This document shows positions 22,550 to 63,048 of a stretch of DNA of 64,000 nucleotides, piece by piece. The translations under genes were made by a program, and so were the position numbers. How positions within the stretch are numbered: the stretch's first letter is position 1; the number at the start of each line of letters is the position of its first letter. The notes under the pieces are model-generated. The model had not been told where the DNA came from. It saw only the letters and a list, made by a program, of their open reading frames with translations, and did not search any database. The stretch covers positions 1,550,001-1,614,000 of the forward strand of contig JAYJMM010000017.1 in NCBI GenBank assembly GCA_037349105.1. Reading direction: 5' to 3'. This stretch comes from Limnomonas spitsbergensis (taxonomy: Eukaryota; Chlorophyta; Chlorophyceae; Chlamydomonadales).

Positions 22550-23085
22550 ATCAGGGGTGGCTGCAGCAGCAGCAGCAGTAGTAGCAGCAACAGCAGCAGC
22601 AGGACCTTGCTGATCAGGGGTGGCGGCAGCAGCAGCAGCAGCAGTAGCGGCAGCAGCAGCAGCAGCAGGATCTTGCTGATCAGGGGCGGCGGCAGCAGCA
22701 GTAGCAGTAGCAGTGGCAGCAGTAGTAGTATCGGCAGCAGCACCAACATGATCTTGCTGATCAGGAGTGGCGGCAGTAGCAGCAGCAGTAGCGGCATCAG
22801 CAGCAGGATCTTGCTGATCATGAGTGGCGTCAGCAGCAGTAGCAGTAGCGGCAGCAGCAGCAGGATCTTGCTGATCAGGGGCGGCGGCAGCAGCAGTAGC
22901 AGTAGCAGTAGCAGCAGTAGTATCGGCAGCAGCACCAACAGGATCTTACTGATCAGGAGTGGCGGCAGTAGCAGCAGCAGTAGCGGCATCAGCACCAGGA
23001 TCTTGCTGATCATGAGTGGCGGCAGCAGCAGTAGCAGTAGCGGCAGCAGCAGCAGGATATTGCTGATCAGGGGTGGCAGCTCGAA
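22550..23085. repeat. CAG-based minisatellite with TTGCTGATCAG motif
   Basis: Higher-order units of about 45-65 bp. Each has GGATCTTGCTGATCAGGGG, then GGCGGCAGCAGCAG and AGTAGC runs; about ten units. The Ala-rich minus frame is interrupted by TAA, so coding is unlikely. Confidence 0.8.
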
Positions 23086-34452: not shown

Positions 34453-37400
34453 TCAGCTAAAGTGATCCATCCTTGCCTGGCCGCCACTCAGGGCCGCCTC
34501 CTTCTCCGGCATGCCCTTGATGACCGGGGTGTTGCGGGCGATGCGCTCCAGAGACATCATCAGGACTGCCGCAGCCACTAGGAAGGCGGAACAGAGCCCA
34601 AACATGGCCGACAGGGGGAAGAGGTGTACCTGAAAGGGGGTCGAGTTTAAAACGGTGTATACCCGCTGGGCCCTGCTAAAAGCTCGGCCGCGTGGGGCTG
34701 GTAGGGAATGACTAAGCTCAATTCCAGCTACTATACACTGCCGGGACCATGGCGCAGCCATGCCTCCCATGTGAAAGGGATGTGTGATGGCAACGGAAGA
34801 TACAGGCAAACAGATCGAGCATCCCACCACGCTCACGTTGCAAGGATGATACACAGTGTCTGTATTGCACACACACACAGGTCAAGTGGGATGCGGAAGC
34901 GGATGATGATGGTTGAGCACAGGCAGCCCAACCTACCGCAGCCTCCACTCGTTCACACTTACATTGTACAGGATGACGCACACAAACAGGTTGAGTGGAA
35001 TGCGGAAGCAATTGATGATGGTGGAGCGCAGGTCCTCCGGGACGTAGTGCGCCCTCATGGTCATCATGGAGGGCCAGAAGATACCCACCATGACCTGAGA
35101 GGGTAGGTGTGACAACAGAAGGAGTAAGATAAGGGAGGTGTGAGGGCTGCACTGAAACACAGCGGAGAACCAGAAGATACCCTTCATGACCTGAGAGGGT
35201 AGGTGTGACAGCACAAACTGTGAAACAGGGTGTGGAGATGAGGCGGGGTGTGAGATGAAGCGGACACACATGGTCGTGATGGAGGGCCAGAAGATACCCA
35301 CCGTGACCTGGGCAGAGGAAAGGACAGAGGAAGAGGGTGTGGAAAGGAGCGGAAGGAAGGGGGCGTGAGGGTGGCAGGAAAACCAAGGTCATCATGGAGG
35401 GCCAGAAGATGCCCGCCAGGGCTCCGTGGGGGGGGTGAAAACACTGTAGGAGCGTGAGGAGAGGGATCTGACCGGTGATACTTATATACCCCCTCTGTTT
35501 GGGGCCGCGGGGGGTACCCCACCCAGGTGCAGACTGGTGAAAGGAAAGAGGTGAGGGGCAAGAACGACGGTGGACGGCAAAATAGAGTGAGGACTGTGTT
35601 AGGGGTGCGATGAGCTAGGCGTGAGGGCCGCTCCGGCACACATAACCATCCAAAACAGCGGCATGCTGATCAAGCTCAGCAGGACAGCACCGGCGATTTG
35701 AGGGGCAGCCTAGTTTAGGGTTAAAGGTTCAGGGTTAAGAGTTTTGTCCAAGGTGACTGGCAACCACGCCAGGGAGGGGATCAAATCCTTGTACCGGTAC
35801 CCGCAACATGTCTGTCTCATTCCCACTGGCAGCTTGTCTGCGGTGAATAAACCCTAATAGCACCATGACAATCTCATTCCAACTGAGAGCATATTAGGGC
35901 TCTGCTGATTATGTCTTTAGGTTGCCAGGCTTTCTGGAGCAGGCCATATGAATTTCAGCAGCACTCTGTCCCCCCTGCCAAGGTCTTACAGCGACATTTC
36001 ATGGCCATCTAAACCTCAAAGTTTTGGGGGATGCACCCCATGGGAGGGGGAGACCCCTTCCCCTGCCTTCTTCTCCTGTATCCTGTACCGGCACCTCAAA
36101 CTTTCTGAACCCGACCATACGCGCATTTCAGCAGCACTCCGGCAATACTCCGCCCCCCCCCAGCCTGCCACTCCTCCATCCATTGATGTCCAGTTCCTAG
36201 AGATACGGTATAATGGATTCCTTATAGAGAGATAACGACCCCCGGCAAGAATGTGAGATCCGGTACCTCAAAGACGCAGAAGGCGACCAGCTGCATCTGG
36301 CCGTCCAAGGAGATCCCCTGGGAGGGAAGTGGATCCCCCTCTGCAGCTGGCTTGTCTGCTGTGGGCATCATAGGACCAGGAAGTGAGTCAAGGGAGAGGT
36401 CTCAAAGGGACAGCTCCAATACCCTGATAGACCACACCCTGCATCCTTGAGCACTCAACCGTCCAGATCTCAATGACTCCCAAACGTGTCCACCCTCTTG
36501 CGCCAGCACAGGTCAAGCTTTGCCTTGTTTTTCCAAATTGCCAATCGATCAACGACCATACATGGGTATGGCTCGTGGCCAGGGTGAGGACTAAACCCTG
36601 AATCCTACGTCTGAACGATGGGTATGGCAAGCGCTTTATACAGTCCCTTTCATCTCACCCAGTGATTCTTTAAATGGTCACAGCTTACGAGTCGTCACAA
36701 AAGTGGTAACAAAACAATTAATTCGACGAAGCCGAGGTTCCGTCGCACAGTAACGGAAAACGTCAAAAATAATTAGGATCTGGGAAATCTCGGCGCCTGT
36801 GGCGCTCTCCCTGCCAGGGAATCTCTATTCAGGTTTCCAACGATTAATTCCAAATGTCACTAAAAGGAACCCTGATCTCACCTGACGCCCCGATTTGGAA
36901 GAGGAATGGCACCGCAAGGGAGGCGGCGGCTATAGCAAACACATACTTCATGAAGGCCTCGGGTCTCGACCGCTTCATGAGGATGGCACTCAGGACGCTG
37001 CCCACCTGGTGACAAGTGGAGGGAAGGGGAGAGGGTTACAGGCATAAATAATGTGTTCTAAAACCTTGGGCGTGACTGCATGATCAGGAGAGCACTCATG
37101 GCAGTATGGCACTGTCCGACTGACAGTGTGGAGAGGAAGCAGGGGAGGGGGAGAGTTAAAGGCCAATGTTAGGAAAGCCTCGGTGTTGACCGCATCACCA
37201 GGATAGCAATCAAAGCAACATTTCCCACATGAAAGTGAGGAGAGGAAGCAGGGGAGGGGGAGGGTTGCAGGCATGTGTTATAAAGGCCTCGGTCTTGACT
37301 GACCTGTTCATCTGGCACTCAAAGCACTTCCCACATAAACATGAGGAGAGGAAGCAGGGGAGGGGGAGGGTTGCAGGCATGTGTTATGAACGCCTCAGTC

Positions 37401-40400
37401 TTGAATGACGGCATCATCCGGAGAGCAATCAAGGCATTTCCCACATGACAGTGCGCATTGGAAATGGGAGGGAGAGGTCAGGGGGTCGGAGTCCAGGGAA
37501 GGGGTGGGAGGGAGAGGTCAGGGGGTCGGAGTCCAGGGAAGGGGTGGGAGGGAGAGGTCAGGGGGTCGGAGTCCAGGGAAGGGGTGGGAGGGAGAGGTCA
37601 GGGGGGCGGAGTCCAGGGAAGGGGTGGGAGGGAGAGGTCAGGGGGTCGGAGTCCAGGGAAGGGGTGGGAGGGAGAGGTCAGGGGGTCGGAGTCCAGGGAA
37701 GGGGTGGGAGGGAGAGGTCAGGGGGTCGGAGTCCAGGGAAGGGGTGGGAGGGAGAGGTCAGGGGGGCGGAGTCCAGGGAAGGGGTGGGAGGTAGAGGTCA
37801 GGGGGGCCGAGTCCAGGGCAGGGGTGGGAGGGAGAGGTCAGGGGGGCGGAGTCCAGGGAAGGGGTGGGAGGGGATAGTTGGGCGAGGGGGGAGGGTTGCG
37901 GGCATCTGTTGTAAAGACCAGAAGACTCGATCGCTCCATGAGGGTTGCGCTCAGGACACTACCCACCTGGCGTTGCAGATTGGAAAGGCGGTGTGTGTGG
38001 GGGGGGTGAGATGGCAGAGGGTAAGGGGGTAGGGGGTAAAGGGTAGGGGGAAAGGGGGAGGGGGTAAATGGCAGGGGGGAGGGCATCTTTCATACAGGCT
38101 TCAAGACTCGACTGCCTTGTCAGGATTCCACCCGGGACACTGCCCACCTTAGGGAAAGAGGGTTAGGCTGAGGAGGCCTAGCATTTTGTGAGAGCTTGAG
38201 GGATTCCTGTACATGACAGACAAGCTAACAGGGCTGGAGATGCAACACTGAGGCGGATCAGAACCTAAAGCATGCGGATCAGGACCAAAAACATGGACTG
38301 GTGAACCCCAACCTTGAGACCAAATGGGCGCAAAGCAACCCAGCTGTGATTGCTCAAGGTTGATATAAAGGAAGGTGATCTGAAGGAGGACCTGTAGCGT
38401 GGATCCTGACCTTCAAGACTAGAAGGGAGCACAGCAGCGAAGCAGAAATCGCTGAACGTTTATACGGACAAGGACCTGTAGCGTGATCCCTGACCTTTAA
38501 GACCAAGGATGCTGAGGAAAGCTCAGCAGCCATTGCTGTCGAAGGTGTCCGGGGATGCGTGATGGGGAGGTGTGAAGGGAGGAGGAGGTTTAGGGGGGGG
38601 GTGCTGAGGAAAGCTCAGCAGCAATTGCTAATAAGAGCCTGCCATGGTCAGGACCCTAAGCATCCACTCTCGGCTTTTGACCTACTGTTTTCTGCCATTC
38701 ATCTTTGCACCGCCTGGCTTTTTCCATTAAGGTCACTGGTTGGGTGCGTAGCTTTCGCTGTCACGACAAGCGATGCACCACATGTGCACAAATAGAACAT
38801 CATGCTGGCCGTCATGCAGCAAGCAAATATTATTTTATTGACCAGAATCCAAGCATACCGTACGGCCCCGGCCGTACGGTCAAGCATACCGTACGGCCCC
38901 GGCCGTACGGTCAAGCATACCGTACGGCCCCGGCCGTACGGTCAAGCATACCGTACGGCCCCGGCCGTACGGTCAAGCATACCGTACGGCCCCGGCCGTA
39001 CGGTATCCGTATTATATAATCCAGCACCTCTGTGCCACCGTCACACACAGCTCACCATGCTGGCGGCCATGAAGCACGCGAAGATCATTCCGTGTGGGAT
39101 GGTCTCTCCCTTGGGGCTGAGAGCCGGCGTCCACAGGAAAACAAAGGAGTACATGGAGGCCTCAAAGAGGGACTGCATGGCCCCCAGCAGCGCAATCTTG
39201 GTGTCTGCATGGGGCGCATGGGGAACATGACGTGCATGGGACGTCTCAAAGAGGGACTACATGGCCCCCAACAGCGCAATCTTGGTGTCTGCATGGGGCG
39301 CGTGGGGTATCTGAGGTGCATGGGACGTCTCATAGAGGGACTGCATGGCCCCCAGCAGCGCAATCTTGGTGTCTGTATGGGAGGAGGACAGGTCGGAAAC
39401 GCACAAAGAAGTACATGGATATGCACAACGCATGGCTGCAGGAATATAAACTCCTAGCAAGGAGGAGGACAGAGGTGGATATGCACAACGCGACGCTGCA
39501 AAATTTTAAATTCCTGACTAGCAAGGAGGAGGATGCCGCAGGAACTGCCGAAGGCCTTGAGCAACGAGTATGGCTTTGTTTAACCAGAAAGTGGCAAGAG
39601 TCAGTCCACCCTCGCTCCGTAACCCTTGCATGTACTGCCGCCGTACCTCCAATGATTGCCACCGCTGCCAGCTTGAACTGCTGCCCAATGGAGGTCTGAT
39701 TCTTAGCGTCACCATAATTCTCCCCTGCGTGCAATACCAGGCGCAAATAGGCCGAGGTGCGTGATGCGGTTGCCACGCGTCGCGCATCAGAGGAAGTAAA
39801 TATAGCTTGACATGCATGACAGAGTTGGCGCATATTCCGCAACAAAGAAAACGAGGAGTAGCAGACTCCTCCCCCCTACACGACTCAAGAAAGCAAGGCA
39901 AGCAGACTCCTCCCCTCTCCACCCAATGCAGGGCTTACCCCAAGAGGCCAGGATCACAGCCCCTCCAATGAGCAGAACCGTTGCCGAGGCGTCAAATGGC
40001 GCAACGGGCCCAAACTTCATGTTGTCTACCAAGAAATTGGCGACCAGGCCAGCCAGGATGGCCACCAAGCCGTTACCGACAAACACCGCCTGAAAAGACA
40101 CTTCAAACAAGGGCAAATGTTTTACACAAGACCCAGCCATCCAGGATGGCCACCATGCCTTTTCCGACAAACACCGCCTGGTGGAGGGGGCAGGGGCACG
40201 TGCATGAGTGTGGTGCATGGAGGGCATGGGTGTGCCATCCATGCATGCTTGGTGCATTGAGTGCATGACGCAAACAGATGGCGACCAGGCCGGCCATGTG
40301 GGCCACCCAGCCATCATCCAAAACCAATACCTGGGAAGGCCGGTTTCAAACAACGTCAAAGTTTGCATTCAAGAGCAGGTTCTAGGACATACCCCGGTAT

Positions 40401-42106
40401 CCTTAAATGTCTTCTTCTCATGCGTCATCATTCTGCACGCCGGAGGTCCCAGAGGCGCACAGATCCCGCCCTGGTAACTGTGTTCCATTCAGTGTGCACC
40501 AGACCATCTTTGGGGTCTGCTGGATCCGGCGACCCCTGGTCTAATTGGGACCAAACTTTGACCAGCCTATGACCGGGGGCTCAAGTAACAGGGATTTCTG
40601 CTTCAAGCCCTGCCTGACTACGGCTGGATTGTAGCTGAAGTGTAGCTGAAGCTGGCTAAGGAAAACGGTGCCCTCCATCCTCCTGATTCAGGAACCAGAC
40701 TTCTGTTTACACAGCCAAGACCTTTTGAGCCAGGCGCATAGGCAGATGCATCAACGCTGCTACAACAAGTGCACCTGACACTGACGGTCTACTGCTGCTG
40801 CTGCTGCTGCTGCTTCTACTGCTTCAGTACGGACCTTTGAGAAAGTGTCTCCAAGCCATCTCTCCTCCAGGCCCTTGGAGAAGTGCTCCGACACTATCCA
40901 CGACTCAAAGGCAGAGAAAAGCAGCGAGGTTGCGATTCCACCCAGCAGCCTCCCGACCATCAGCACTCCAAAGTCAGAGCTGTGTTTGGTGAGACAGCTG
41001 AGGACATACAAGACGACGTACAAAAGGGACGCTCTCCTTCGACCACTGCAGCAGCATAGAGGAACAGTCTTTGGGTGCTGCAATGTAGCTACTGCAACAG
41101 TTCAGAAGAGCAGTCTTTGGCTGCTGCAGTAGAGCTACGGCAACTCCCAGCAGACAGCACTGTGCTCCATAGAGTAACATGAATAAACCTGGCCCACGCT
41201 GGTATTGCATGGACCTTTATTCCAGCGCATGCAAAGCTTCACTTGCAGCTCTGCGCATGCAGTCAAGCTCATGCACCCCCCTGCTGAGGAGGACGGTGTT
41301 CCTTGAGGACTCGTGAATGAACCTCTTTCACAGACTCTCCCAACCCTCCAAATCTCTCTCCCCAATCTCCCAAGCCTGGGCATAGCACATAGTTATTCAT
41401 GAATGTGTCCAAGTCTATGCAGAGGCCAACCTGCTTCAGCTTGCAAGTACGGTAATGCATGCACTACCTGGTCAAGAATATGTCGCATGAACGCATTGCC
41501 AGATCCTCCCAGATTGTATATAAGCCTCGTTGAGTACCATTCCAGATGCAGAAGGCCTCCAGAAGATCAAGCATGGAGCATGACAGATGCGTAGGGCCCC
41601 CAGCAGATCTAGCATGGAGCATGCCAGATCCAAAGGGCCTCTAGAAGATCTATCGTGCAGCATGACAGGCATGGTATGGTGGTGATGCATCGCCTCACTA
41701 TTTGTCTGCTAACGATCCAACGATTGTCCCGAAGATCATGGACGATCCGAACCCCGCGATGAAGAGACGACCGATGTCTTTAACGTCGTATCCGTAGAAT
41801 TGGTACAGCGCATACACGTATGGGCCCTGTAGCCAGTCACCAGCTGCAAAGCTCAATCGGGTAGTTGGGGGTGAGGGTCAGTTACCGAATAGACTTGTCG
41901 GGCCAGAAGCCCACTGTGAGGGACTCGAGCGATGCCGCACCCATCATTAAAGCGTAGACGAACACATAGTTGTTCCGCAATTTAAAAAACGCCAGCACGT
42001 TTGGCCCGGATGCGGGAACGATGCTGCCCTCATTGTTTTGGGTTAACAACAGACCGCCGATGAACACAGCCAACACAGAGAACAGTACGTAGTACAAGGA
42101 CTCCAT
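34453..42106 (-). CDS. MOT2: MFSD5/MOT2-type molybdate-anion transporter
   Basis: Multi-pass MFS transporter of the MFSD5 family; in Chlamydomonas the member MoT2 imports molybdate. Ten exons: 41941-42106, 41699-41843, 40835-41045, 39939-40089, 39647-39724, 39056-39204, 36882-37005, 36267-36340 (or 36346), 34963-35094 and 34453-34629. They total 1407 nt with matching phases at all joins, 468 residues, the usual family length. Family marks: N-terminal hydrophobic helix, DWLQGPYVYALYQFYGY, the MFS loop LADKYGRRR, GRLLGGIATSLLFSAFESW, the GPVAPF and SWGENY region, SLFEASMYSFVFLWTPAL, VGIFWPSMMTMRAHYVPE and FRIPLNL. The start ATG is followed directly by the first helix. Introns hold exon-edge duplicates, a 40-bp minisatellite, a palindrome array, one family B and one family A copy. 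Substrate is inferred from the family. Confidence 0.93.
34655..34712 (-). repeat. Family A core in MFSD5 last intron
   Basis: CCCGCTGGGCCCTGCTAAAA, GCTCGGCCGCGTGGGGC, reverse orientation. Confidence 0.6.
35050..35430 (-). repeat. Repeated 5' edge of MFSD5 exon 9
   Basis: GGAGGGCCAGAAGATACCCA, CCATGACCTGAGAGGGTAGG is found at the true exon edge (about 35065-35110) and again near 35165, 35265 and 35395. Each copy carries the acceptor context plus the GIFWPS coding edge. Confidence 0.8.
36985..38150 (-). repeat. Repeated 5' edge of MFSD5 exon 7
   Basis: The exon start (ATGGCACTCAGGACGCTGCC, CACCTGG) recurs in degenerate form near 37090, 37195, 37300, 37415, 37940 and 38120. Copies are separated by GAGGAGAGGAAGCAGGGGAG-type spacers. 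Confidence 0.75.
37458..37872. repeat. 40-bp G-rich minisatellite, about 10 copies
   Basis: Unit GGGAGGGAGAGGTCAGGGGG, TCGGAGTCCAGGGAAGGGGT, with very few substitutions. Located in MFSD5 intron 6. Because 40 is not a multiple of three, all three plus frames stay open; they are not genes. Confidence 0.95.
38856..39004. repeat. Array of five 31-bp palindromic units
   Basis: Each unit is CAAGCAT plus a 24-nt near-perfect palindrome: ACCGTACGGCC, CC, GGCCGTACGGT. The five units are essentially identical. In MFSD5 intron 6, ending about 50 bp from the donor of exon 6. Confidence 0.95.
39150..39390 (-). repeat. Triplicated 5' edge of MFSD5 exon 6
   Basis: CTCAAAGAGGGACTGCATGG, CCCCCAGCAGCGCAATCTTG, GTGTCTGCATGG occurs at 39155-39212 (true exon), about 39244-39297 and about 39327-39378. 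The acceptor ATGCAG is conserved in the middle copy. Confidence 0.9.
39939..40330 (-). repeat. Triplicated 5' part of MFSD5 exon 4
   Basis: True exon start at 40089 (AVFVGNGLVAILAGLVAN). A second copy at about 40135-40182 reads AVFVGKGMVAILDGWV with its own CCAG acceptor. A third, weaker copy at about 40275-40330 reads DDGWVAHMAGLVAI. Confidence 0.8.
40490..40640 (+). repeat. Dispersed repeat family B, copy 8
   Basis: Begins GTGTGCACCAGACCATCTTT, then ATTGGGACCAAACTTTGACC. Ends with GGATTGTAGCTGAAGTGTAG, the tail typical of the family. In an MFSD5 intron, antisense to the gene. Confidence 0.75.
40794..40817. repeat. CTG trinucleotide run
   Basis: Eight CTG units just inside MFSD5 intron 3, next to the donor of exon 3. 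Confidence 0.8.
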
Positions 42107-42477
42107 TATTTCATGAATGAATGGAAAATGACAGAGACTTTGATGCCTGCTCTGGAATATAGTAGTACGGCAGCAGATCTGAAGCGGACCAAACCGCAGG
42201 TAGCCTAGTCCGGCAGTCAGAACAGCAGTATGAGCCTGAGTCCCATCTACTGTATTATAATTGAGGCATAGTTGAGAAATGCCATTCCACAGGGCCAAAG
42301 TAGCATACTAGTTCGACACGAAGGATGGTCACAACTCACAACTCAAGTAATTAACCACAAACGTCAGGAAGCTCAAGGGGGTATTTCCGTATTTGACCAC
42401 TTTGATTATGTCGATAAAGCTACTATCCTAGAGGATGGTCACAATTAAACCACAGGCATCCTGCCTGAAGCTCTAGG

Positions 42478-45400
42478 TCAAATTGACCTCTGGTCTGTCG
42501 ATAAAGCTCCTGTTCTTGCTAGGGCTTCAGGTCCTGGGTTGGAGTTTCCGAATTTGTCAAGAAAGCTATCTTCATCCATCACAACTCCATACGGATGCCC
42601 CTCTTTATCATTGGGGGCATCGGGGCTGGCCATGCTCCAGAACCTGCAATCAAGAGCATACAGGCAAGTTGGCAACAGTCAGCAGTCCTTAATCTGCATC
42701 ACTGACTGCAAGAATGCCATGCACAAGCCGGCGGCATGATAGCAGTCAAATCAGTGTTTCTTGCAAAACCCTGCTTTGACAGCTGTGCTTCAGTCTTCAA
42801 AGCAACATTCCAGTAACCTGTATGTGCTGTCGCAATTACAGTAGGACGAATAATCCCGACTTCTGTGGGACGACATTCAAATGCGCCCCTGTCAAGAAGA
42901 TCAGACCCTGATGTCAACCTGTGGATGTTGTTCAAGCCGCCGTCTGTCGAGGCTATGCAAGGGTAGGCCGGAGGAGGGGCCATCCAAGCCCCGTCTGCAC
43001 CCAGCATGTGGCTCCTGTCTGAGGCAAAGCTGGTGAGGAACCTCGAGCCAGGAATCACGCGGAAGTATCTGGACGCAGGAGTAGGCAGCAGGCAAGGTGA
43101 GCCAGTAGGCAAGTGAAGTAGGGAGTAGCCAGCTAGCAGGAGTAGGCAGCAGGCAAGGTGAGCCAGTAGGCAAGTGAAGTAGGGAGTAGCCAGCAGGCAA
43201 GGTGAGCCAGTAGGCAAGTGAAGTAGGGAGTAGCCAGCTAGCAGGAGTAGGCAGCAGGCAAGGTGAGCCAGTAGGCAAGTGAAGTAGGGAGTAGCCAGCA
43301 GGCAAGGTGAGCCAGTAGGCAAGTGAAGTGGGGAGTAGGCAGCAGGCAAGGTGAGCCAGTAGGCAAGTGAAGTAGGGAGTAGCCAGCAGGCAAGTGAAGT
43401 AGGGAGTAGGCAGTAGGCAAGTGAAGTAGGGAGTAGCCAGCAGGCAAGTGAAGTAGGGAGTAGGCAGCAGGCAAGGTGAGCCAGTAGGCAAGTGAAGTAG
43501 GGAGTAGCCAGCTAGCAGGAGTAGGCAGCAGGCAAGGTGAGCCAGTAGGCAAGTGAAGTAGGGAGTAGCCAGCAGGCAAGGTGAGCCAGTAGGCAAGTGA
43601 AGTAGGGAGTAGGCAGCAGGCAAGGTGAGCCAGTAGGCAAGTGAAGTAGGGAGTAGTCAGCAGGCAAGTGAAGTAGGGAGTAGGCAGCAGGCAAGGTGAG
43701 CCAGTAGGCAAGTGAAGTAGGGAGTAGGCAGCAGACAAGGTGAGCCAGTAGGCAAGTGAAGTAGGGAGTAGCCAGCTATCAGGAGTAGGCAGCAGGCAAG
43801 GTGAGCCAGTAGGCAAGTGAAGTAGGGAGTAGCCAGCTATCAGGAGTAGGCAGCAGGCAAGGTGAGCCAGTAGGCAAGTGAAGTAGGGAGTAGCCAGCTA
43901 GCAGGAGGAGACAGCAGGCAAGTGAAGCAGGGAGTAGCCAGCTAGCAGGAGTAGGCAGCAGGCAAGTGAAGTAGGGAATAGACAGCTAGCAGGAGGAGAC
44001 AGCAGGCAAGTGAAGCAGGGAGTAGCCAGTACGCAAGTGAAGTAGAGAGTAGCCAGCTATCAGGAGGAGCCAGCAGGCAAGGTGAGCCAGCAGAAGGAGC
44101 CAGTAGGCAAGTGAAGTAGGGAGTAGCCAGCTATCAGGAGTAGCAAGCAGGCAAGGTGAGCCAGCAGGAGGAGCCAGTAGGCAAGTGAAGTAGGGAGTAG
44201 CCAGCTATCAGGCGTAGCAAGCAGGCAAGGTGAGCCAGCAGGAGGGGCCAGTAGGCAAGTGAAGTAGGGAGTAGCCAGCTATCAGGAATAGCCAGCAGGC
44301 AAGGAGAGCCAGCAGGAGTAGCCAGTAGACAAGTGAAGTAGGGAGTAGCCAGCTAGCAGGAGTAGCCAGCAGGCAAGGACAGCCAGCAGGAGTAGCCAGC
44401 AGGCAAGGTGAGCCATCAGGAGGAGCCAGCAGGCAAGGTGAGCCATCAGGAGGAGCCAGCAGGCAAGGTGAGCCATCAGGAGGAGCCAGCAGGCAAGTGA
44501 AGTGGGGAGTTGTTAAACCGTGCAAAACGAATCACGTGAAAATAGTTCATAAACTGCGCGGAAGCGTCTGGACGCTGGAGGAGCCAGCAGGCAATCAAAG
44601 TAGGTGGGGAGATGGAGGAGAACAAGCAATGAACCAGTTTACGGTAAATATTATACTGTGTACCATATAACGAATCACGTCAAAATAATGTATTAACCGC
44701 ACGGAAACATCTGGAACGCAGAAGCAGCCAGCAGGCGAGGGATGGGGATTATATATCAATACATGCATGGGATTTATCGGGTTTGTTGAAGCCACGTAGG
44801 CAGGTGCTTGAAGGATTCTCTGCTGCCTACCAAAATATTCAAAATTTTCAGGTTCCACAAGCAAAGATATTCTTCCAGACGGTTCAAACGAGCCAACACT
44901 AAAGCTAGGCGGCATTGTATCGCCAGTTAAAGGCAGGACACACATCATTGACTACAAAGGCAGACAACCCTCAAAGGCAGGAGACACATTGACCCTCATA
45001 TATAAGAACCTCAAACGCAGGCAATACCGGTTCATACATTCCACACACACACACTTCAACACACATACGCTTCCACACACATACGCTTCCACACACATAC
45101 ACTTCTACGCACAAATACGCTTCCACGCACATACCTTGTATAGCACGGGGCCAGTTGTAAATGATGCTTGAGAGCCTGGTGGGTCCATGGAGGGCAGATC
45201 TGTTACTGTGCTGACGGCGGCTACTTTGACCGGGCATGCCAAAGACAAGCAGGCTGGCCACACCAATGGAAAGGACCACCTGCCGACCATGAGAGGCACC
45301 CAGTCCACCCCTGGACACTTGTGCACCAACCCATCAGGCTTCAGGCCGCCAGGTCAGACAGGGAAAGCTGCCGGTCTCGAAAGCTACCGTGAATATTGTT

Positions 45401-48400
45401 TAAGGTTTAGGGTTTAGGGTCGAAACTCGAAAGCCACCGTTTACATTGTTTTGAGGTTTTGATTTTTAGTTTAGGGTCTAGGGTCGAATGCCACCGTTAA
45501 TATTTGTGTAGGGTTTAGGTTTAAGGTTTAGGGTCGAAAGTCACCGTGCATATTGTTTTGGGTTAAGGGTTGAGGGTTTAGGGTCGAACGCCACCGTCAA
45601 TATTGTTTTGGGTTTAGGTTTTAGGGTGAAGGGTTTAGGGTCAAAAGCCACCGTGAATATTTGTTTAGGGTTGATGGTAAAGGGTTTAGGGTCGAAAGTC
45701 ACCGTGAATATTGTTTTGGGTTCAGGTTTTAGGGTGAAGGGTTAAGGGTCGAAAGCCACCGTGAATATTGTTCTTAGTTTAGGTTTTAGGGTGAAGGGTT
45801 TAGGGTCGAAAGCCACCATACATATGACCTAGGCTTCAACCCAAGTCTGAATCAAGCCGGCCGTACAACATAACCTGCACAAAAATGGGCTATTTGATTG
45901 TCGAGATTCGTTGTGAGGATACCTGCTAGGCTTGACTAAATGTGTGGGCCTTTCAAAACCATGAATGCTTTGCATGCGCTACCTTGCACCCTATATGCCC
46001 CTGTGCCTCCCAGTTTCATGCGTGCCTAATCCACAAATTCCTTGAAGGCAGGCATTTCAAAACCATGTACGGTATCAGTGTATGCTTTGCCCGCATGCCC
46101 CATGCAACCAGCCCCTGTTCCATGCTCGCCTGGTCCATGTACTCTTCAAACGTGCATGGGAACGGTAGCGATGTATCCAGGTCCCAGACAAGTGCCCTGC
46201 CTTTATCTCCAGCTGCCGGCCCTACACGTGACAGGAGCACCATGGCTCAGCTTCAAGTTGAGCCCCAAAGGAGGCACTCAAGTATGAGGACGTCCATCAA
46301 ACAATGTGCAGCCCTACTGATACCCAGAGCTGTCTCAGCTTCAATGCATGTTCATGTTTACAATACCAGCTTGCACAAGGGAGGCACAGCAAAAGGCTAG
46401 TCATCGAAACATAAATCCATAATGGCGACTTTGGGCACAGCAGTGGGAAGCATACCCTGTCCCTCCCCCCCAGGTTCTAGTGACGGATACTGCAGCCCCT
46501 CTTTGCCTCCCCACTGCTTGCTTGGAGCCCCGAATTCCCTGGCACTGCAAACTCCGTCCACATACCTGTGCCTATAACTTGGCCCAATGCCCACCTGACT
46601 GCCCGCCCTACTGATTGAGGATGACAGGGTCGTCCCACACCACCAGCCCCCCCTGCTAGAACGCAACCCGAATCCCCCTGCATCACAAACTCTGTCCAAA
46701 GCCGTGCCCCAAGCTTGGCCCGAGGTCCACAAAATGCCCACCCGACTGCCCGCCCTTGGCTGAGAACTTGACCCAATGCCCACCCGGCTGCCTGCTCTGC
46801 TGAATCAGGATGACATGGTAGTCCCACACCGCCAGCCCCTCCCGTTGGGGGTCCCTTGGCTGAGGACTTGGTCTAATGCCCACCCAACTGCCCGCCCTTG
46901 GCTGAGAACCTGACCCAATACCCACCCGGCTGCCTGCTCTGCTGAATCAGGATGACATGGTAGTCCCACACCGCCAGCCCCTCCCGATAGGGATCGCCCG
47001 CAGCCTGACACCACAAGGGGACCTATAGCAAGGAGAGGGCAAACAGGGAAAGAGCTCAGCAGGGTTGGATCGCTTAGACAGGGGTGGTAATGCTGTGTTG
47101 ATGGGGTCATATCTGGACCCTCGTGTTCATATCACATTGCAGCATTGCACCCAATTAAACACTGCTAACAATGCACGGAAGTAAACCTCGTGAGCACCTG
47201 CAGCCTGTCACCACTAGGGGACCTGAAGGCAGCAGTGGTTGTCATGCTGTGTAAATGATGCAATATATGGACCCTCACACCCATCAATGTGTACTGAAGT
47301 GCATAACAACAATGCACCTAAGTAAACACTGCCGTAGAGCATGCAACCTCGCACAACAAGGAGACATGAAGGTAGGCAGGTCAGGAGAGCAGCAGAGCTG
47401 CCTTTCACCACAAGGGGAGATGAAGGCAGGAAACAGATCAGCAGCATTATCCCAGGCCTGAGGCTGGCTCAGAAGTGAGACCTTCTGTAAGCCGCGTTGC
47501 GCCATGTTGCGCCACATTGCACCCTTACCCCGGACTGAAGCTGGATCCACATTGAGACTTCCATGTGCCACGTTGCACCTTATTGCACCCTTACCCAGGA
47601 CTGAATCTGGCTCAAACGTGAGATCTTCTGTGGGCCGCATGGCACCCTTACCCAGGTCCAAGGACTGAAGCTGGCTCAAAAGTGAGATCTTCTTTGGGCC
47701 ACATTGTGTCATATTGCGTACTTACCCATAACTGAACCACTAGGCAATACCTCTCCCTCAAGCCTGAAATTGACATGCCAGCTCCCACACTTCACCTTTT
47801 TCTCAGAGTTGGAGATGAAGACCACCCACAAATCTTCAAGCTGGATGCAGGGGCAGCCCTCAGCCTGGATGCAGGGGATGTAGGGGCAGGCTAGATGCTG
47901 GGGCAGCCCTCAGTCTGCAGAAGGCCATCTCAAAGCAATAAATTCAGATATGCATGTCACTGCCATGTCCGGTAAATTTTCAAGCTACAAGGGTTGCCTG
48001 CAAGCTTCACCCAATATGAGTTAGATCTGGATATATATAGATCTGAGATCTGGATCTGTGCACAAGGCCTCGTGTCACCAGGGATAAAAATGGCCGTCGG
48101 CGTTCAGACATTTAAAGCTTTGTGTGGTCTAGCGAGACCACACTTGCAGCCAGGCATAAGGTAAGCTCGTAATAGGGCCCGCGTAAAGCTGGTCCTTCAT
48201 GCATACCCCATTCTGCATGAATTCCGATTTGAGATCTGTGCTCTCCTGACTTCTTAAGAAAACATCCAGGCAGGCAGATGATCAGCAAGTGATAAGGCAT
48301 GCATGCAGCTAGATATGCTGATCGGAATCCTGGTGATGGATGAGGACCAGGTGACGGATGGGGAAAGCTCAATCTGAGTGACTAGATGCAGCGTCTTTTG

Positions 48401-49686
48401 TAGTGCGTGCCAGACCTCCTTTGGGGGGCCATGGGGCAGCCACAACTGGGTCGACGGGGACAACAGCTTTACTGACCTACGGCTGGTAGCCCAAGCAGCA
48501 TGAAATGCTACACCAAGCCCTGCCGGTTGTAGGCAGGTTCATAGCTAAATTGCAATGATACGCCTTAAACTCGGCGACTCCATGCAGGTGACTCCATGCA
48601 GGTGACTCCATGCAGGTGACTCCATGCAGGTGACTTCATGCAGGTGACTCCATGCAGGTGACTCCATGCAGGTGACTTCATGCAGGTGACTCCATGCAGG
48701 TGACTCCATGCAGGTGACTTCATGCAGGTGACTCCATGCAGGTGACTCCATGCAGGTGACTCCATGCAGGTGACTCCATGCAGGTGACTCCATGCAGGTG
48801 ACTCCATGCAGGTGACTCCATGCAGGTGACTCCATGCAGGTGACTCCATGCAGGTGACTCCTCAAATATGAAGTCAAAGGGTTCAGACCCATGTCTAGCT
48901 AAGGTGTTAAATACCCACAACTTGCTGCATTAGGCCCCCTTAGGTCAGGAGGCAGCTGAATGGAAGCTGAATCGAAGCTAAAATAACCCTTAGGTCAGGA
49001 TATCTGCAATCACCTGGCGTTCTCCAGCCCTGTTTATTAGCACAGAACAAGTGCGTCGATTGGTCGCCCCTTCTCCCCCCACCATTCCCCACGTCTTCGC
49101 TATATAGCAGTTAAGAGAACCCCAGCAGGAGAGGTCTTAAGTTTAATCAAGAAGGCACTGAAGACCTAGAATTCCATGTCTCAGGCCGCAGAGGGTTTAT
49201 CATGGGATGACGCTGAGAAACCTTTGCAAATCTGTCGGGGGTGGCCCCTGCATAGGAATCTACCCTGGATGTGAAGCTCTCAACCAGCAAGGCGCAAATG
49301 ATCATGGGGTGACGCTGAGAAAACTTTGCAAATGCGTCAATGGTGTTCCCTGCATGAATACCTGCCCCGTATATGAAGCTCTGACCCAGCCTGTATTCAT
49401 TCTCCACCCAGTCACCTTCCTTTCCCATTCCCACTCCATTAGCAGGATTGCAATGAAGCATATCAGCAGATGCAGCAGGATTAAAAAGGTAGGTCCCTAC
49501 ATGGCAACTCACCCCGAATGTGAGACTGTCCACCTGCTGGGCAAACTACCCATGCACTGCAACCTCCCCAGCATGGCAACCTACCCCGGACGTGAAGCTC
49601 TCCAGCAGCTTGTACACGTTCTCCTCACAGAAGCAACTGGTGTAAGTAGACAAGGACTTGTGGTCACTAAATTTGCCTGCTTGCAT
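42478..49686 (-). CDS. NTAQ1: Protein N-terminal glutamine amidohydrolase
   Basis: Deamidates N-terminal Gln of proteins to Glu in the N-degron pathway. Seven exons: 49585-49686, 47796-47840, 46926-47022, 46130-46200, 45135-45175, 42919-43068 and 42478-42643, totalling 672 nt and 223 residues (the family has about 205). Catalytic triad by family comparison: Cys20 in YTSCFCEEN, His71 in VWDYHV and Asp88 in VWDLD. Other family marks: WVVFISNSEKK, LPFPCTFEEYMDQ, YFRVIPGSRFLTSFASDRSH and APPPAYPCI. All junction phases close; exon 4 to 5 requires a GC donor (CAG followed by GCGAGC at 46129). The C-terminus is a lineage-specific Asp/Asn/Pro tail. Introns hold large minisatellites and exon-edge copies. 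The start shares a 324-bp divergent region with the VTT gene. Confidence 0.93.
43040..44740. repeat. Complex minisatellite grown from exon 6 edge of NTAQ1
   Basis: Roughly 1.4 kb of units such as GGTGAGCCAGTAGGCAAGTG, AAGTAGGGAGTAGCCAGCTA, GCAGGAGTAGGCAGCAGGCA in varying order. The true exon edge (GCGGAAGTATCTGGACGCAG) is at its left end, and degenerate copies of that edge are at about 44560 and 44695 at its right end. Long frames rich in LLAYSPLHLPTGSPC-type repeats are artefacts. Confidence 0.85.
45395..45830. repeat. Telomere-like TTTAGGG repeats with 60-bp periodicity
   Basis: About seven units of GGTTTAGGGT, CGAAAGCCACCGTGAATATT, GTTTTGGGTTTAGGTTTTAG in NTAQ1 intron 4. TTTAGGG is the common green-plant telomere repeat. 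Confidence 0.85.
45945..46200 (-). repeat. Duplicated 3' edge of NTAQ1 exon 4
   Basis: TTTCAAAACCATG and the segment resembling GCCTGGTCCATGTACTCTTC recur at about 46020-46065 and 45950-45965 beside the true exon end at 46130. Confidence 0.55.
46600..47022 (-). repeat. Three copies of most of NTAQ1 exon 3
   Basis: ATCAGGATGACATGGTAGTC, CCACACCGCCAGCCCCTCCC occurs in the true exon (46943-46985), at 46805-46848, and degenerately at 46615-46660. Downstream intron sequence (GCCCACCCGGCTGCCTGCTC) is duplicated with it. Confidence 0.85.
47205..47435 (-). repeat. Copies of the NTAQ1 exon 3 acceptor edge
   Basis: CCTGTCACCACTAGGGGACC (47210), ACAACAAGGAGACATGAAGG (47352) and CTTTCACCACAAGGGGAGAT (47400) resemble the true edge at 47005-47025 (CCTGACACCACAAGGGGACC). 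Confidence 0.7.
47450..47730. repeat. 60-75-bp tandem repeat in NTAQ1 intron 2
   Basis: Four units with GACTGAAGCTGGCTCAAAAG, TGAGATCTTCTGTGGGCC and GCACCCTTACCCAGG. Confidence 0.8.
48398..48560 (+). repeat. Dispersed repeat family B, copy 9
   Basis: GTAGTGCGTGCCAGACCTCC, CAGCCACAACTGGGTCGACG, AGCCCAAGCAGCATGAAATG and tail TCATAGCTAAATTGCAATG, in NTAQ1 intron 1. Confidence 0.7.
48580..48862. repeat. 14-bp minisatellite, about 20 copies
   Basis: Unit GACTCCATGCAGGT, with a GACTTCATGCAGGT variant recurring. It abuts the end of family B copy 9 in NTAQ1 intron 1. Confidence 0.95.
49200..49625 (-). repeat. Repeated 3' edge and donor of NTAQ1 exon 1
   Basis: The exon end (CCCCGGACGTGAAGCTCTCC on plus) recurs as ACCCTGGATGTGAAGCTCTC (49262), CCCCGTATATGAAGCTCTGA (49364) and CCCCGAATGTGAGACTGTCC (49511). 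The donor GGTAG is kept in at least one copy. Confidence 0.8.
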
Positions 49687-60827: not shown

Positions 60828-63048
60828 TTACAGACCGTATGGCTTTTGCAGCTTGGGCAGCATGTCCACAAACATGAGTGTGAAGACGACGTGGGGTCCA
60901 ATCCTGTGGGCAGCAATATGTTTCATCTCAGGTCAATTCTCGACTTCAAAAAATATGCTAGGCTACCGGTAGTTTCTCCAGCTAGGCAGGGTTTCGTCTT
61001 GCCACATATGCAGGGCATCGATTTGAAGGGGAGCTAATAAGCCTAGACAAAAAACGTTTAACAGAAACTCCTTATCATTTACGACATATCCTAGGCTGCG
61101 GCTTAGGCTCTAGATTTAGACACCGCGTATGACCTTACATGGGGTATAGGTGCATGATTTTCTTTTTTTAGAGACTTTGTTGAGGCCTAGTCTCTAGTGG
61201 AACTCAGGTGTCGGACTTGGTCTTCTTTGCCTTCCCAGCCTCTCCTTTTGTTCCTTCCCCCCCCTCTTCCTTGTAGTTTCTTCGTTTCTCCCTTCTAAAC
61301 AGTTGGGCGCCCACGCAGCCGAGCTTTGAGCAGGCCCGGAGGTGTAACGTTATTGACATGGGAGTGTAGGTGCATGCTCTAGGGTCTACTATTGCCAAAC
61401 CCTAGATTTACGCACCTAGCAATGTAGGTGGGGAAGCCGGTGTAGAAAGTGAGTGCGCCCTCCTTTGTCAAGGTCTTCATCACGCAGTCCAAGCTTCCTT
61501 TGTAAGGCATGGTGCCGTCCGGCAGCGGCTGCATCTTCTGCATCCGCGTCTTGACGAAGTCAAACGGAAGACTGTGTGAAACACAATAGGAAATAAATCA
61601 GAGGTGGAAACAGGGGTTTGAAGATAAAACATGAGGGGAGATACAGGAAAAATATCATGGAATAAAAGATAATATGGGGGGGGGAAATCGAAATATATGA
61701 CGAGGTTTGAGGTTTGAACCCTGCCAAGCCCAGCATGTTTGATCATGGAGGCGAGGAATAACATGTTTGATCATGGAGGCGAAGAATAACATGTTTGATC
61801 ATGGAGGCGAGGAATAACATGTTTGATCATGGAGGCGAGGAATAACATGTTTGATCATGGAGGCGAGGAATAACATGTTTGATCATGGAGGCGAGGAATA
61901 ACATGTTTGATCATGGAGGCGAGGAATAACATGTTTGATCATGGAGGCGAGGAATAACATGTTTGATCATGGAGGCGAGGAATAACATGTTTGATCATGG
62001 AGGCGAGGAATAACATGTTTGATCATGGAGGCGAGGAATAACATGTTTGATCATGGAGGCGAGGAATAACATGTTTGATCATGGAGGCGAGGAATAACAT
62101 GTTTGATCATGGAGGCGAGGAATAACATGTTTGATCATGGAGGCGAGGAATAACATGTTTGATCATGGAGGCGAGGAAACACATGGCACTGTTACCGTAC
62201 ATGATTAACTTTGTCATGGAAGTCGAAACCTGTAATAGAGATATACATCAAAATCTGTCTTGAACACATCAGCCATCACACATCAGCCATCCTTGCCCTA
62301 CCAGGCCCGCCATGCCCTTCCACAAATGAACCCTCCTCGTCAGCGTACCGCTCTCCTCTCTCATCCAATTACTTACAACAAAACCCCACTTTCAAGGACT
62401 CGCGCATCTCTCAAACACCCAATCCAGGACGACACCCACCTGCATGCTGCTGCGAAGAAGCCAGCAATGAAAGCTCCTCCCAGAACTGAGGTCTGCTTGC
62501 CCATGCCCATGCCGATGAGCATCTCCTTGGCCTTCAAGGCAGAGGGTCAGGAGTGACATCAGGTTGAAACCAAAGTAATGTGGGAATCTCCTTCGAAAAG
62601 ACTAACTGGATGCACCTTCTGTATAAACATCCACGAGGGAAATTCTGTCTGCGTATCCCACTATCCCACCATCCCTACGTTGGAGCTTTCGGAAAAATCG
62701 GAGTCCCAGATGAAACTTTCGGATAACTCAGGCAAAAATAAGCTGTCGGAATGGCAGAGAAACCTGAAGTGTGTGTGTTACAGCAGAGGCTCCCGCTAGG
62801 GCGAGGAATCCTGGCCAGGAATTTGGTCTCCCATCCCCTAATGCCTCAGGCACACAATGTTCCAGCCACAGCAAACAACTTCGTGTCATAAGTGTACATC
62901 ATACAAGCCTGACCTCCCCCATCTCAGCCAAGATCCATTCCCCACCTGGTCATTGGAGGCAAGCATGCCCATGTTGAGGGCCATGGCGCGCGTGGCCGTG
63001 GGCGCAGCGCCACGGAACAGGCCACCAATGCCGTCCTCCCTCACAATC
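60828..63048 (-). CDS. DTC: Mitochondrial di/tricarboxylate carrier, 3' part
   Basis: Inner-membrane SLC25 carrier of the plant DTC / oxoglutarate-malate type, exchanging 2-oxoglutarate, malate and citrate. The four last exons are 62946-63048, 62440-62531, 61416-61571 and 60828-60903; the phases match and they end in TAA. They encode the last about 142 residues: DGIGGLFRGAAPTATRAMAL with NMGMLASNDQ, GAFIAGFFAAACSLPFDFVK (third carrier signature PFDFVKTRM), MPYKGSLDCVMKTL with FYTGFPTYIARIGPH, and the C-terminus PKLQKPYGL. The exon starting at 63048 begins with a split codon, so the 5' exons lie to the right, beyond 63049 and probably beyond the window; none is recognisable up to 64000. Introns hold a 28-bp minisatellite and exon-edge copies. 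The 3' UTR is a TGTAA-bearing minisatellite. Confidence 0.9.
61160..61375 (+). repeat. Dispersed repeat family A, long copy
   Basis: TTTTTTTAGAGACTTTGTTG, CTAGTGGAACTCAGGTGTCG, GACTTGGTCTTCTTTGCCTT, CAGTTGGGCGCCCACGCAGC, GGTGTAACGTTATTGACATG, in the last intron of the carrier gene. Over about 200 bp it closely matches 21893-22100. Confidence 0.8.
61734..62180. repeat. 28-bp minisatellite, about 16 copies
   Basis: Unit TGTTTGATCATGGAGGCGAG, GAATAACA, nearly identical throughout, in the carrier gene intron between 61572 and 62439. Confidence 0.95.

Follow-up and report, generated by a model that had tools for sequence, protein, structure and literature searches.

A window of 64,000 nucleotides (nt) on contig C17 of the green alga Limnomonas spitsbergensis contains two genes, an MFSD5-type molybdate-anion transporter gene and NTAQ1 (N-terminal glutamine amidase), in which exon edges recur as extra copies within the adjoining introns. 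Many of these copies straddle the splice border and include coding bases, and they are referred to here as decoys. The question raised by this locus is which process places decoy edges beside working ones, and whether splice borders are its target. The account that we favour, with a probability of about 0.72 for the explanation as a whole, is that introns grow by local, border-indifferent tandem duplication, which leaves decoy edges behind. In four large dynein heavy-chain genes elsewhere in the genome, 22 to 30 percent of examined exon borders have extra intronic tandem copies.

The dynein heavy-chain genes, about 16 of which were recognised from 89 exon matches to Pfam AAA_6 that were sorted into groups by eye, served as a comparison sample drawn from one gene family. 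The stretches of contigs C86, C75, C123 and C22 were picked ahead of any repeat search outside the window, and that of C34 was chosen after C75 had been scored, its own repeats being unseen. The gene on C86 had no close reference (the one tried was 34% identical) and was excluded, leaving those on C75, C22, C34 and C123. Each was modelled with two references, and the 424 of 512 edges (256 introns, primary models) on which both references agreed were kept. A local copy straddling the border was found at 93 of the 424 edges in an ungapped search (C75, 26/123; C22, 19/102; C34, 23/98; C123, 25/101) and at 125 of 422 in a gapped search, or 123 of 422 under a slightly stricter gapped rule. Ungapped searches at equally many distant offsets (6.5-8 kb away) gave copies at 0/424 edges, and ungapped searches for inverted copies likewise gave 0/424. 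Since the copies are local and direct, a local duplication process rather than chance is indicated, as the original prediction, made from the letters of the window, had argued. The rate of edge copying in the window is no different from that in the dynein genes (p = 0.35 ungapped, 0.42 gapped). Edge copying thus looks like a genome-level property, as extrapolated from the stretches of C75, C22, C34, C123, C17 and C9, the last of which carries an MFSD5 paralog.

Within the window, gene models were obtained by spliced alignment to homologous proteins, as follows.

34456..42106, minus strand: MFSD5-type molybdate-anion transporter gene, 10 exons, aligned to three homologues
42106-41941, 41843-41699, 41045-40835, 40089-39939, 39724-39647, minus strand: MFSD5 exons 1-5
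39204-39056, 37005-36882, about 36358-36267, 35094-34963, 34629-34456, minus strand: MFSD5 exons 6-10
42544..49665, minus strand: NTAQ1 gene, partial model, aligned to 40 homologues
49585, 47840, 47796, 47022, 46926, about 46200, 46130, 45175, 45135, 43068, about 42919, 42643: NTAQ1 edges

The last MFSD5 exon was extended by reading as far as its stop. All three references give the same nine MFSD5 introns, one acceptor near 36358 excepted, and chlamydomonadalean algae are among the closest named homologues of the protein. NTAQ1 edges were positioned by vote of the 40 references and, with homologues about 46-51% identical, are less sure than those of MFSD5. For the gapped search the adjoining intron was scanned for edge copies, which had to outscore every one of 60 unrelated intron stretches; the 30 edges searched include MFSD5 acceptor 36358 and NTAQ1 edges 42919 and 42643, which are left out of the ungapped counts.

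Straddling copies were found at 11 of these 30 edges, and ungapped straddling repeats at 8 of 27 well-placed edges (MFSD5 4/17, NTAQ1 4/10), in agreement with the original prediction of at least eight duplicated edges in the two genes. Its figure of two to seven copies was close, the gapped search giving 1 to 6 per edge, one starting at -2 included. The AG or GT was said to be often preserved in the copies, and so it is, though not always. Some arrays are ordinary minisatellites and several merge into edge copies, as had also been proposed. One edge beyond the 11, that at 34963, has a copy of the exon part alone. The clearest cases are MFSD5 acceptors 40089, 39204, 37005 and 35094, NTAQ1 donors 49585 and 46926 and NTAQ1 acceptor 43068; the weakest matches, at 47840 and 45135, are short or within simple repeats. 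The copies are given below with their percentage identity, where available.

40130..40180, minus: copy of MFSD5 acceptor edge 40089 (exon 4) from -3, AG kept, 88%; same spacing in the C9 paralog
40279..40353, minus: acceptor edge 40089 again, an older copy with AG intact, 74%
39232..39307, minus: copy of acceptor edge 39204 (exon 6), 84-bp unit, AG kept, 92%
39316..39381, minus: acceptor edge 39204 copied a second time, AG intact, 92%; five copies with a ~85 bp unit in the C9 paralog
38787..38834, minus: donor edge 39056 copied with AT for GT, 75%
37064..37475, minus: four tandem copies of acceptor edge 37005 (exon 7), ~106-109 bp unit, AG lost in 4/4
37064-37146, 37173-37261, 37280-37361, 37386-37475, minus: the same exon-7 copies singly
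37926..37970, minus: additional copy of acceptor edge 37005 with AG intact, 84%
38084..38149, minus: further copy of the exon 7 start (-2 to +64), 73%
35164..35213, minus: copy of acceptor edge 35094 (exon 9), AG kept, 90%
35254..35323, minus: copy of acceptor edge 35094, AG kept, 82%
35384..35443, minus: copy of acceptor edge 35094, AG lost, 82%
34853..34918, minus: 3' end of exon 9 copied up to donor 34963 (-65 to +2), 79%
49494..49538, minus: copy of NTAQ1 donor edge 49585, GT kept
49348..49411, minus: NTAQ1 donor edge 49585 copied with GC for GT
49245..49288, minus: copy of NTAQ1 donor edge 49585, GT kept
47887..47913, minus: short copy of NTAQ1 acceptor edge 47840, weak case
47192..47238, minus: copy of NTAQ1 acceptor edge 47022, AG kept; weaker copy at 47397-47431
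46759..46844, minus: copy of NTAQ1 donor edge 46926, 61 exon bases, GT kept, 98%
46576..46659, minus: copy of NTAQ1 donor edge 46926, GT kept, 81%; shorter copy at 46859-46898
45076..45107, minus: weak case, a copy of NTAQ1 donor edge 45135 inside a 16-bp repeat, with loss of GT
43099..44736, minus: copies of NTAQ1 acceptor edge 43068, with AG intact at 44557-44592 and 44695-44736 and with GG for AG in four partial copies within the minisatellite that occupies the intervening space

The introns of the two genes also contain repeats of other kinds. A 1.4-kb minisatellite in an NTAQ1 intron (43075-44497) is flanked by, and partly similar to, the copies of acceptor edge 43068. Another NTAQ1 intron has a 14-bp unit repeated 20 times with 97% matches (48576-48861), and telomere-type TTTAGGG-like heptamers mixed with spacer (TCGAAAGCCACCGTGAATATTG) lie at 45377-45817, inside the gene and internal to the contig. 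In MFSD5, intron 6 contains a perfect array of five 31-bp units with a self-complementary stretch (38850-39004; ACCGTACGGCCCCGGCCGTACGGT), and intron 3 a dispersed element of ~165 bp (40488-40653) with at least about 39 more matches over many contigs.

The original prediction treated the recurrence as specific to splice sites, a view that comparison with the introns themselves does not support. Among 208 introns (132,573 bp), 48% of bases lie within local direct repeats; 167 of these introns have at least one local repeat, and 82 have a decoy at one or both ends. The repeat share is 15% in introns under 250 bp (14 introns) and 77% in those of 900 bp or more (30 introns), and it is correlated with length (rho 0.49, p = 8e-14). 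Local-repeat coverage declines smoothly from introns (0.30-0.42 at 60-280 bp in) through donors (0.25) and acceptors (0.18) to about zero in exons (0-0.01 at 80 bp or more inside). With several copies per edge considered in six genes, 264 of 270 junction images lie on the intron side and one in an exon, and of the 140 dynein edges that have a local copy of any kind, 125 have one across the border (gapped). Such figures are expected from geometry together with presumed selection, because exon bases can enter an intron by tandem duplication only when the duplicated piece spans the edge; edge arrays therefore require no aiming.

We propose that introns lengthen via local, same-direction tandem duplication, mostly of 40-130 bp pieces, with little heed to splice borders. 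Pieces that span a border by happenstance would leave a decoy exon edge in the intron next to the working edge. Exon-internal events would be purged by selection, since they alter the protein, and an event at one edge would be harmless while the copy adjoining the exon body is spliced. An acceptor AG copied into a zone of about 45 nt immediately upstream of the working acceptor would come after the branch point and capture splicing. Intact decoys are likely to be tolerated, since their AG or GT decays no faster than constrained one-sided sites. Old duplications may also be repeatedly re-copied or gene-converted, as one paralog pair suggests.

The proposed exclusion zone is visible in the distribution of AG dinucleotides. 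In splicing, the first AG after the branch point is chosen. Upstream of acceptors, AG occurs at 6 of 3700 positions within 20 nt (0.1-0.2%), rising to 0.9% at 21-30 nt, 1.9% at 31-40, 3.0% at 41-50 and 3.5-4.4% beyond 50 nt, and no comparable dip in GT is found beside donors. The nearest ungapped decoy lies 48 nt from its acceptor or 28 nt from its donor (search from offset 12), unlike NAGNAG-type tandem sites, which are a few nt apart. Decoys less than 45 nt away were seen at 0/38 acceptors vs 8/52 donors (ungapped, p = 0.019). The AG-poor zone and the distant acceptor decoys fit choice of the first AG after a branch point, the branch points here being putative.

By sequence score, many decoys are of near-normal strength, and the many cryptic splice sites foreseen in the original prediction are indeed on offer. 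Donor decoys have a median of 8.1 bits (true donors 9.5; 95th percentile of intronic GT 7.6) and acceptor decoys 7.0 bits (true acceptors 10.5; 95th percentile of intronic AG 6.3). In 33 of 91 cases (donors 22/52, acceptors 11/39) the decoy scores at least as high as its own true site. The splicing machinery would face many strong false sites, which it probably has to ignore. Outward growth of arrays, a 'conveyor' in which the nearest copy is the most similar, was also considered (39 edges fit it, 23 do not and 3 are tied; p = 0.056) and is not claimed.

The history of individual decoys can be followed in the MFSD5 paralog on contig C9, whose exons 1-7 (at about 394.0-398.0 kb) are equal in length to those of the window gene and 79-88% identical. 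Copies at exons 8 and 9 of the paralog, where the models are not reliable, were ignored, and a fixed score cut-off was used instead of the 60-stretch null. In both paralogs the acceptors of exons 4 and 6 are decoyed, with spacings of 88 and about 90 bp for exon 4 and 84 and about 85 bp for exon 6, and exon homology of the exon 6 copies ends at the same junction; the copies number two on C17 and five on C9. At nine sites in exon 6 that differ between the paralogs, both C17 decoys match their own exon at eight. On C9, the two nearest decoys match their own exon at 7/9, the third at 6 and the two farthest at 4/9, the latter matching the other exon at two sites and neither at three. For exon 4, each of three decoys matches its own exon at 6/9 sites and the other exon at 1-2. 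Private to the C17 gene are the decoyed acceptor 37005 and donor 39056 (at the C9 counterpart of the latter, a copy of exon bases falls short of the edge), and private to the C9 paralog are the exon 4 donor and the exon 5 acceptor. The simplest reading of the shared decoyed edges would be old duplications that are continually renewed; the alternative is independent duplication with the same breakpoints. More tentatively, and with greater doubt than attaches to intron growth itself, exon edges may act as standing templates: the copying that lengthens introns would re-read the border and homogenise the copies to their own exon, the spliceosome would meet decoys of full strength at between a quarter and a third of all borders, and acceptor decoys would be tolerated only past the branch-point AG-exclusion zone.

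Several results weigh against the border-indifferent account. An expectation of the original prediction, that copies straddling splice borders should be commoner than copies at other intron positions, came out in opposite directions by two counts. In raw paired coverage of an edge and a point 120 bp inside the intron, 26 of 397 pairs were edge-only and 72 control-only (p = 3.7e-6), from which a depletion of edges was at first concluded. Raw coverage, however, scores each extra array copy as intron. When arrays are counted once the sign flips (edges 90/421, intron points 1546/12024; ratio 1.66, 1.35-2.02), and the first conclusion is withdrawn. Untargeted simulations with full edge tolerance gave edge/intron ratios of 0.87-0.95, with array growth 0.53-0.81 and with small indels 0.98-1.17. 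Blind duplication plus detectability does not fully explain the 1.66-fold edge excess. In addition, units under 45 bp are scarcer at both kinds of edge than in the intron interior (acceptors 0/38 vs 47/203, p = 2e-4; donors 8/52 vs 61/188, p = 0.016), so that an acceptor-specific zone depends mainly on the contrast of 0/38 with 8/52 given above. Gapped alignment, with the search starting at 25 nt, places the closest image of an acceptor 39 nt away and that of a donor 30 nt away, and the border of the exclusion zone is therefore soft. Selection on exon-internal events is deduced from their absence, the breakpoint analysis comprises 24 two-copy cases, and the sample is one gene family, four of about 16 dynein genes. 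A rival explanation is that borders themselves provoke tandem duplication, through CAG|GT-type microhomology or through transcription- or splicing-linked damage. The once-per-array ratio, which reaches 1.77 for 45-250 bp units and exceeds everything simulated, argues for such hotspots. So do the breakpoints: 24 of 60 near-identical two-copy cases are adjacent, and an overlap of 0-1 bp is seen in 1/24, against the ~84% that chance predicts. This is a hint of microhomology or slippage, although n is 24 and partial third copies inflate some overlaps. Yet duplication pervades the introns, edges have less raw coverage than points 120 bp into the intron, the ratio is just 1.29 (0.60-2.24) among the youngest copies (at least 95% identical), edges show no excess of units under 45 bp (0.87, 0.32-1.66), and the remainder could stem from longer survival or easier detection of edge copies. 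Hotspots at borders are thus rather unlikely; edge recurrence may in the main arise without aiming, with a leftover excess of less than two-fold from mild bias or longer survival of edge copies.

Selection might instead keep decoys as alternative or regulatory splice sites. In line with this, the AG or GT is intact in 85 of 99 nearest copies, many decoys approach true-site strength and two decoyed edges are common to both MFSD5 paralogs. Retention of AG and GT in decoys also seemed high beside other AG and GT in the same copies (66/76 vs 334/494); set against second codon positions, it is not significantly different (166/182 dinucleotide bases vs 709/807, p = 0.25), and the reading of this retention as selection was dropped on this ground. 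Moreover, decoy distances show no reading-frame preference (33, 38, 28), the C9 exon-4 decoy has AA where AG is expected, several edges are decoyed in just one paralog and the four tandem exon-7 copies have no AG. As far as shown, and within this sample, decoy AG and GT are neither purged nor preserved, and functional decoys are distinctly improbable. Errors in the gene models, by which some decoys would be true edges or true alternative exons, are more improbable still. The edges do rest on homologues, those of NTAQ1 being about 46-51% identical, but the MFSD5 references agree on all edges apart from one acceptor, dynein edges were restricted to those supported by two references (one gene being 85% identical to its Chlamydomonas eustigma homologue), and the edge called is the one continuous with the entire conserved exon. 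Finally, the assembly was built from polished PacBio continuous long reads, according to the excerpted text of its report (PMC11228838), and read errors or haplotypes could in principle yield false duplications. The copies are diverged (median identity 0.86) and are therefore not read errors, and the same junction is seen in the paralog on another contig, which makes an assembly artefact barely credible.

Related cases have been described. In the excerpted text of PMC4974935, an intron of the potato RdRp gene was gained through tandem duplication crossing an intron-exon boundary. As in that gene, the pieces duplicated here consist of an intron end and the start of the next exon, the former exon part has turned intronic with its splicing signals inherited, and the copies are tandem, local and in the same orientation. 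The potato gene is a single case with a new intron and between-species support, whereas the copies here sit inside introns already present, beside 22-30% of the edges in four genes. In the Rogers model, introns are gained via tandem duplication of an exonic AGGT segment (PMC4974935, PMC2891723), and introns of Drosophila have been ascribed to tandem duplication (PMC2891723), as far as the excerpted reports go. Tandem duplication within the gene supplies splice-site copies in that model as it does here; however, the model concerns exon sequence only, and in Limnomonas exon-internal duplications are nearly absent and border-spanning ones abundant. Dispersed copies, as expected of introner elements, were not found at distant offsets in the same gene region (0/424), and local copies outscore 60 foreign intron stretches, with no genome-wide search made per copy. 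Nor are whole exons duplicated, as in mutually exclusive exons, the nearest copies at 99 decoyed edges having a median of 27 exon bases and at most 76. Some arrays have the many near-identical head-to-tail units of intronic minisatellites, several grading into edge copies; unlike minisatellites, 54 of the 99 decoyed edges have a single copy, mostly diverged, that takes in coding bases as well as the splice border. Patch- or nick-repair tandem duplications in plants, reportedly described by Vaughn and Bennetzen in 2014 and by Schiml et al. in 2016, are said to be similarly short, direct and tandem, tens of bp in length and found in plant-lineage genomes; in comparison, adjacent copies here overlap at the junction (24 cases), a hint of microhomology. 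Border-spanning duplication is known from single cases, whereas in Limnomonas it is present at 22-30% of tested borders. The original prediction knew of no named description, which is nearly right as to scale and overlooks the single border-crossing duplication in print (PMC4974935). No report of border-spanning copies on a genome-wide scale was found in the open-licence PubMed Central literature, largely titles and abstract starts, which is weak evidence of absence.

Two further repeats lie elsewhere in the window, a 28-bp unit repeated 16 times with 99% matches (61734-62185) and a long CAG-type repeat containing larger repeated blocks of 57-192 bp (22563-23077).

Genomes of this kind may mislead gene finders and repeat maskers as to where exons begin and end. 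If edge copying is genome-wide, it would amount to natural experiments by the thousand, each setting a functional splice site against a similar decoy at a known distance, and proximity, exon definition and branch-point scanning would become directly testable on long-read RNA that already exists; both IsoSeq and RNA-seq of the species are reported in PMC11228838. If, further, exon edges are standing templates, nature would have set up a competition assay of splice-site choice throughout the genome, and the unexplained long introns of chlamydomonadalean algae would have a mechanism. The related core-Reinhardtinia algae have unusually long introns, whose length driver is likely ancient and whose advantage is unknown (PMC8226300). 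In the excerpted text of that comparative study, intron length is not ascribed to local duplication; in Limnomonas, the repeat share climbs with intron length. The local duplication of intron pieces would thus offer a testable answer to the question of what drives intron length in these algae, which that study leaves open (PMC8226300).

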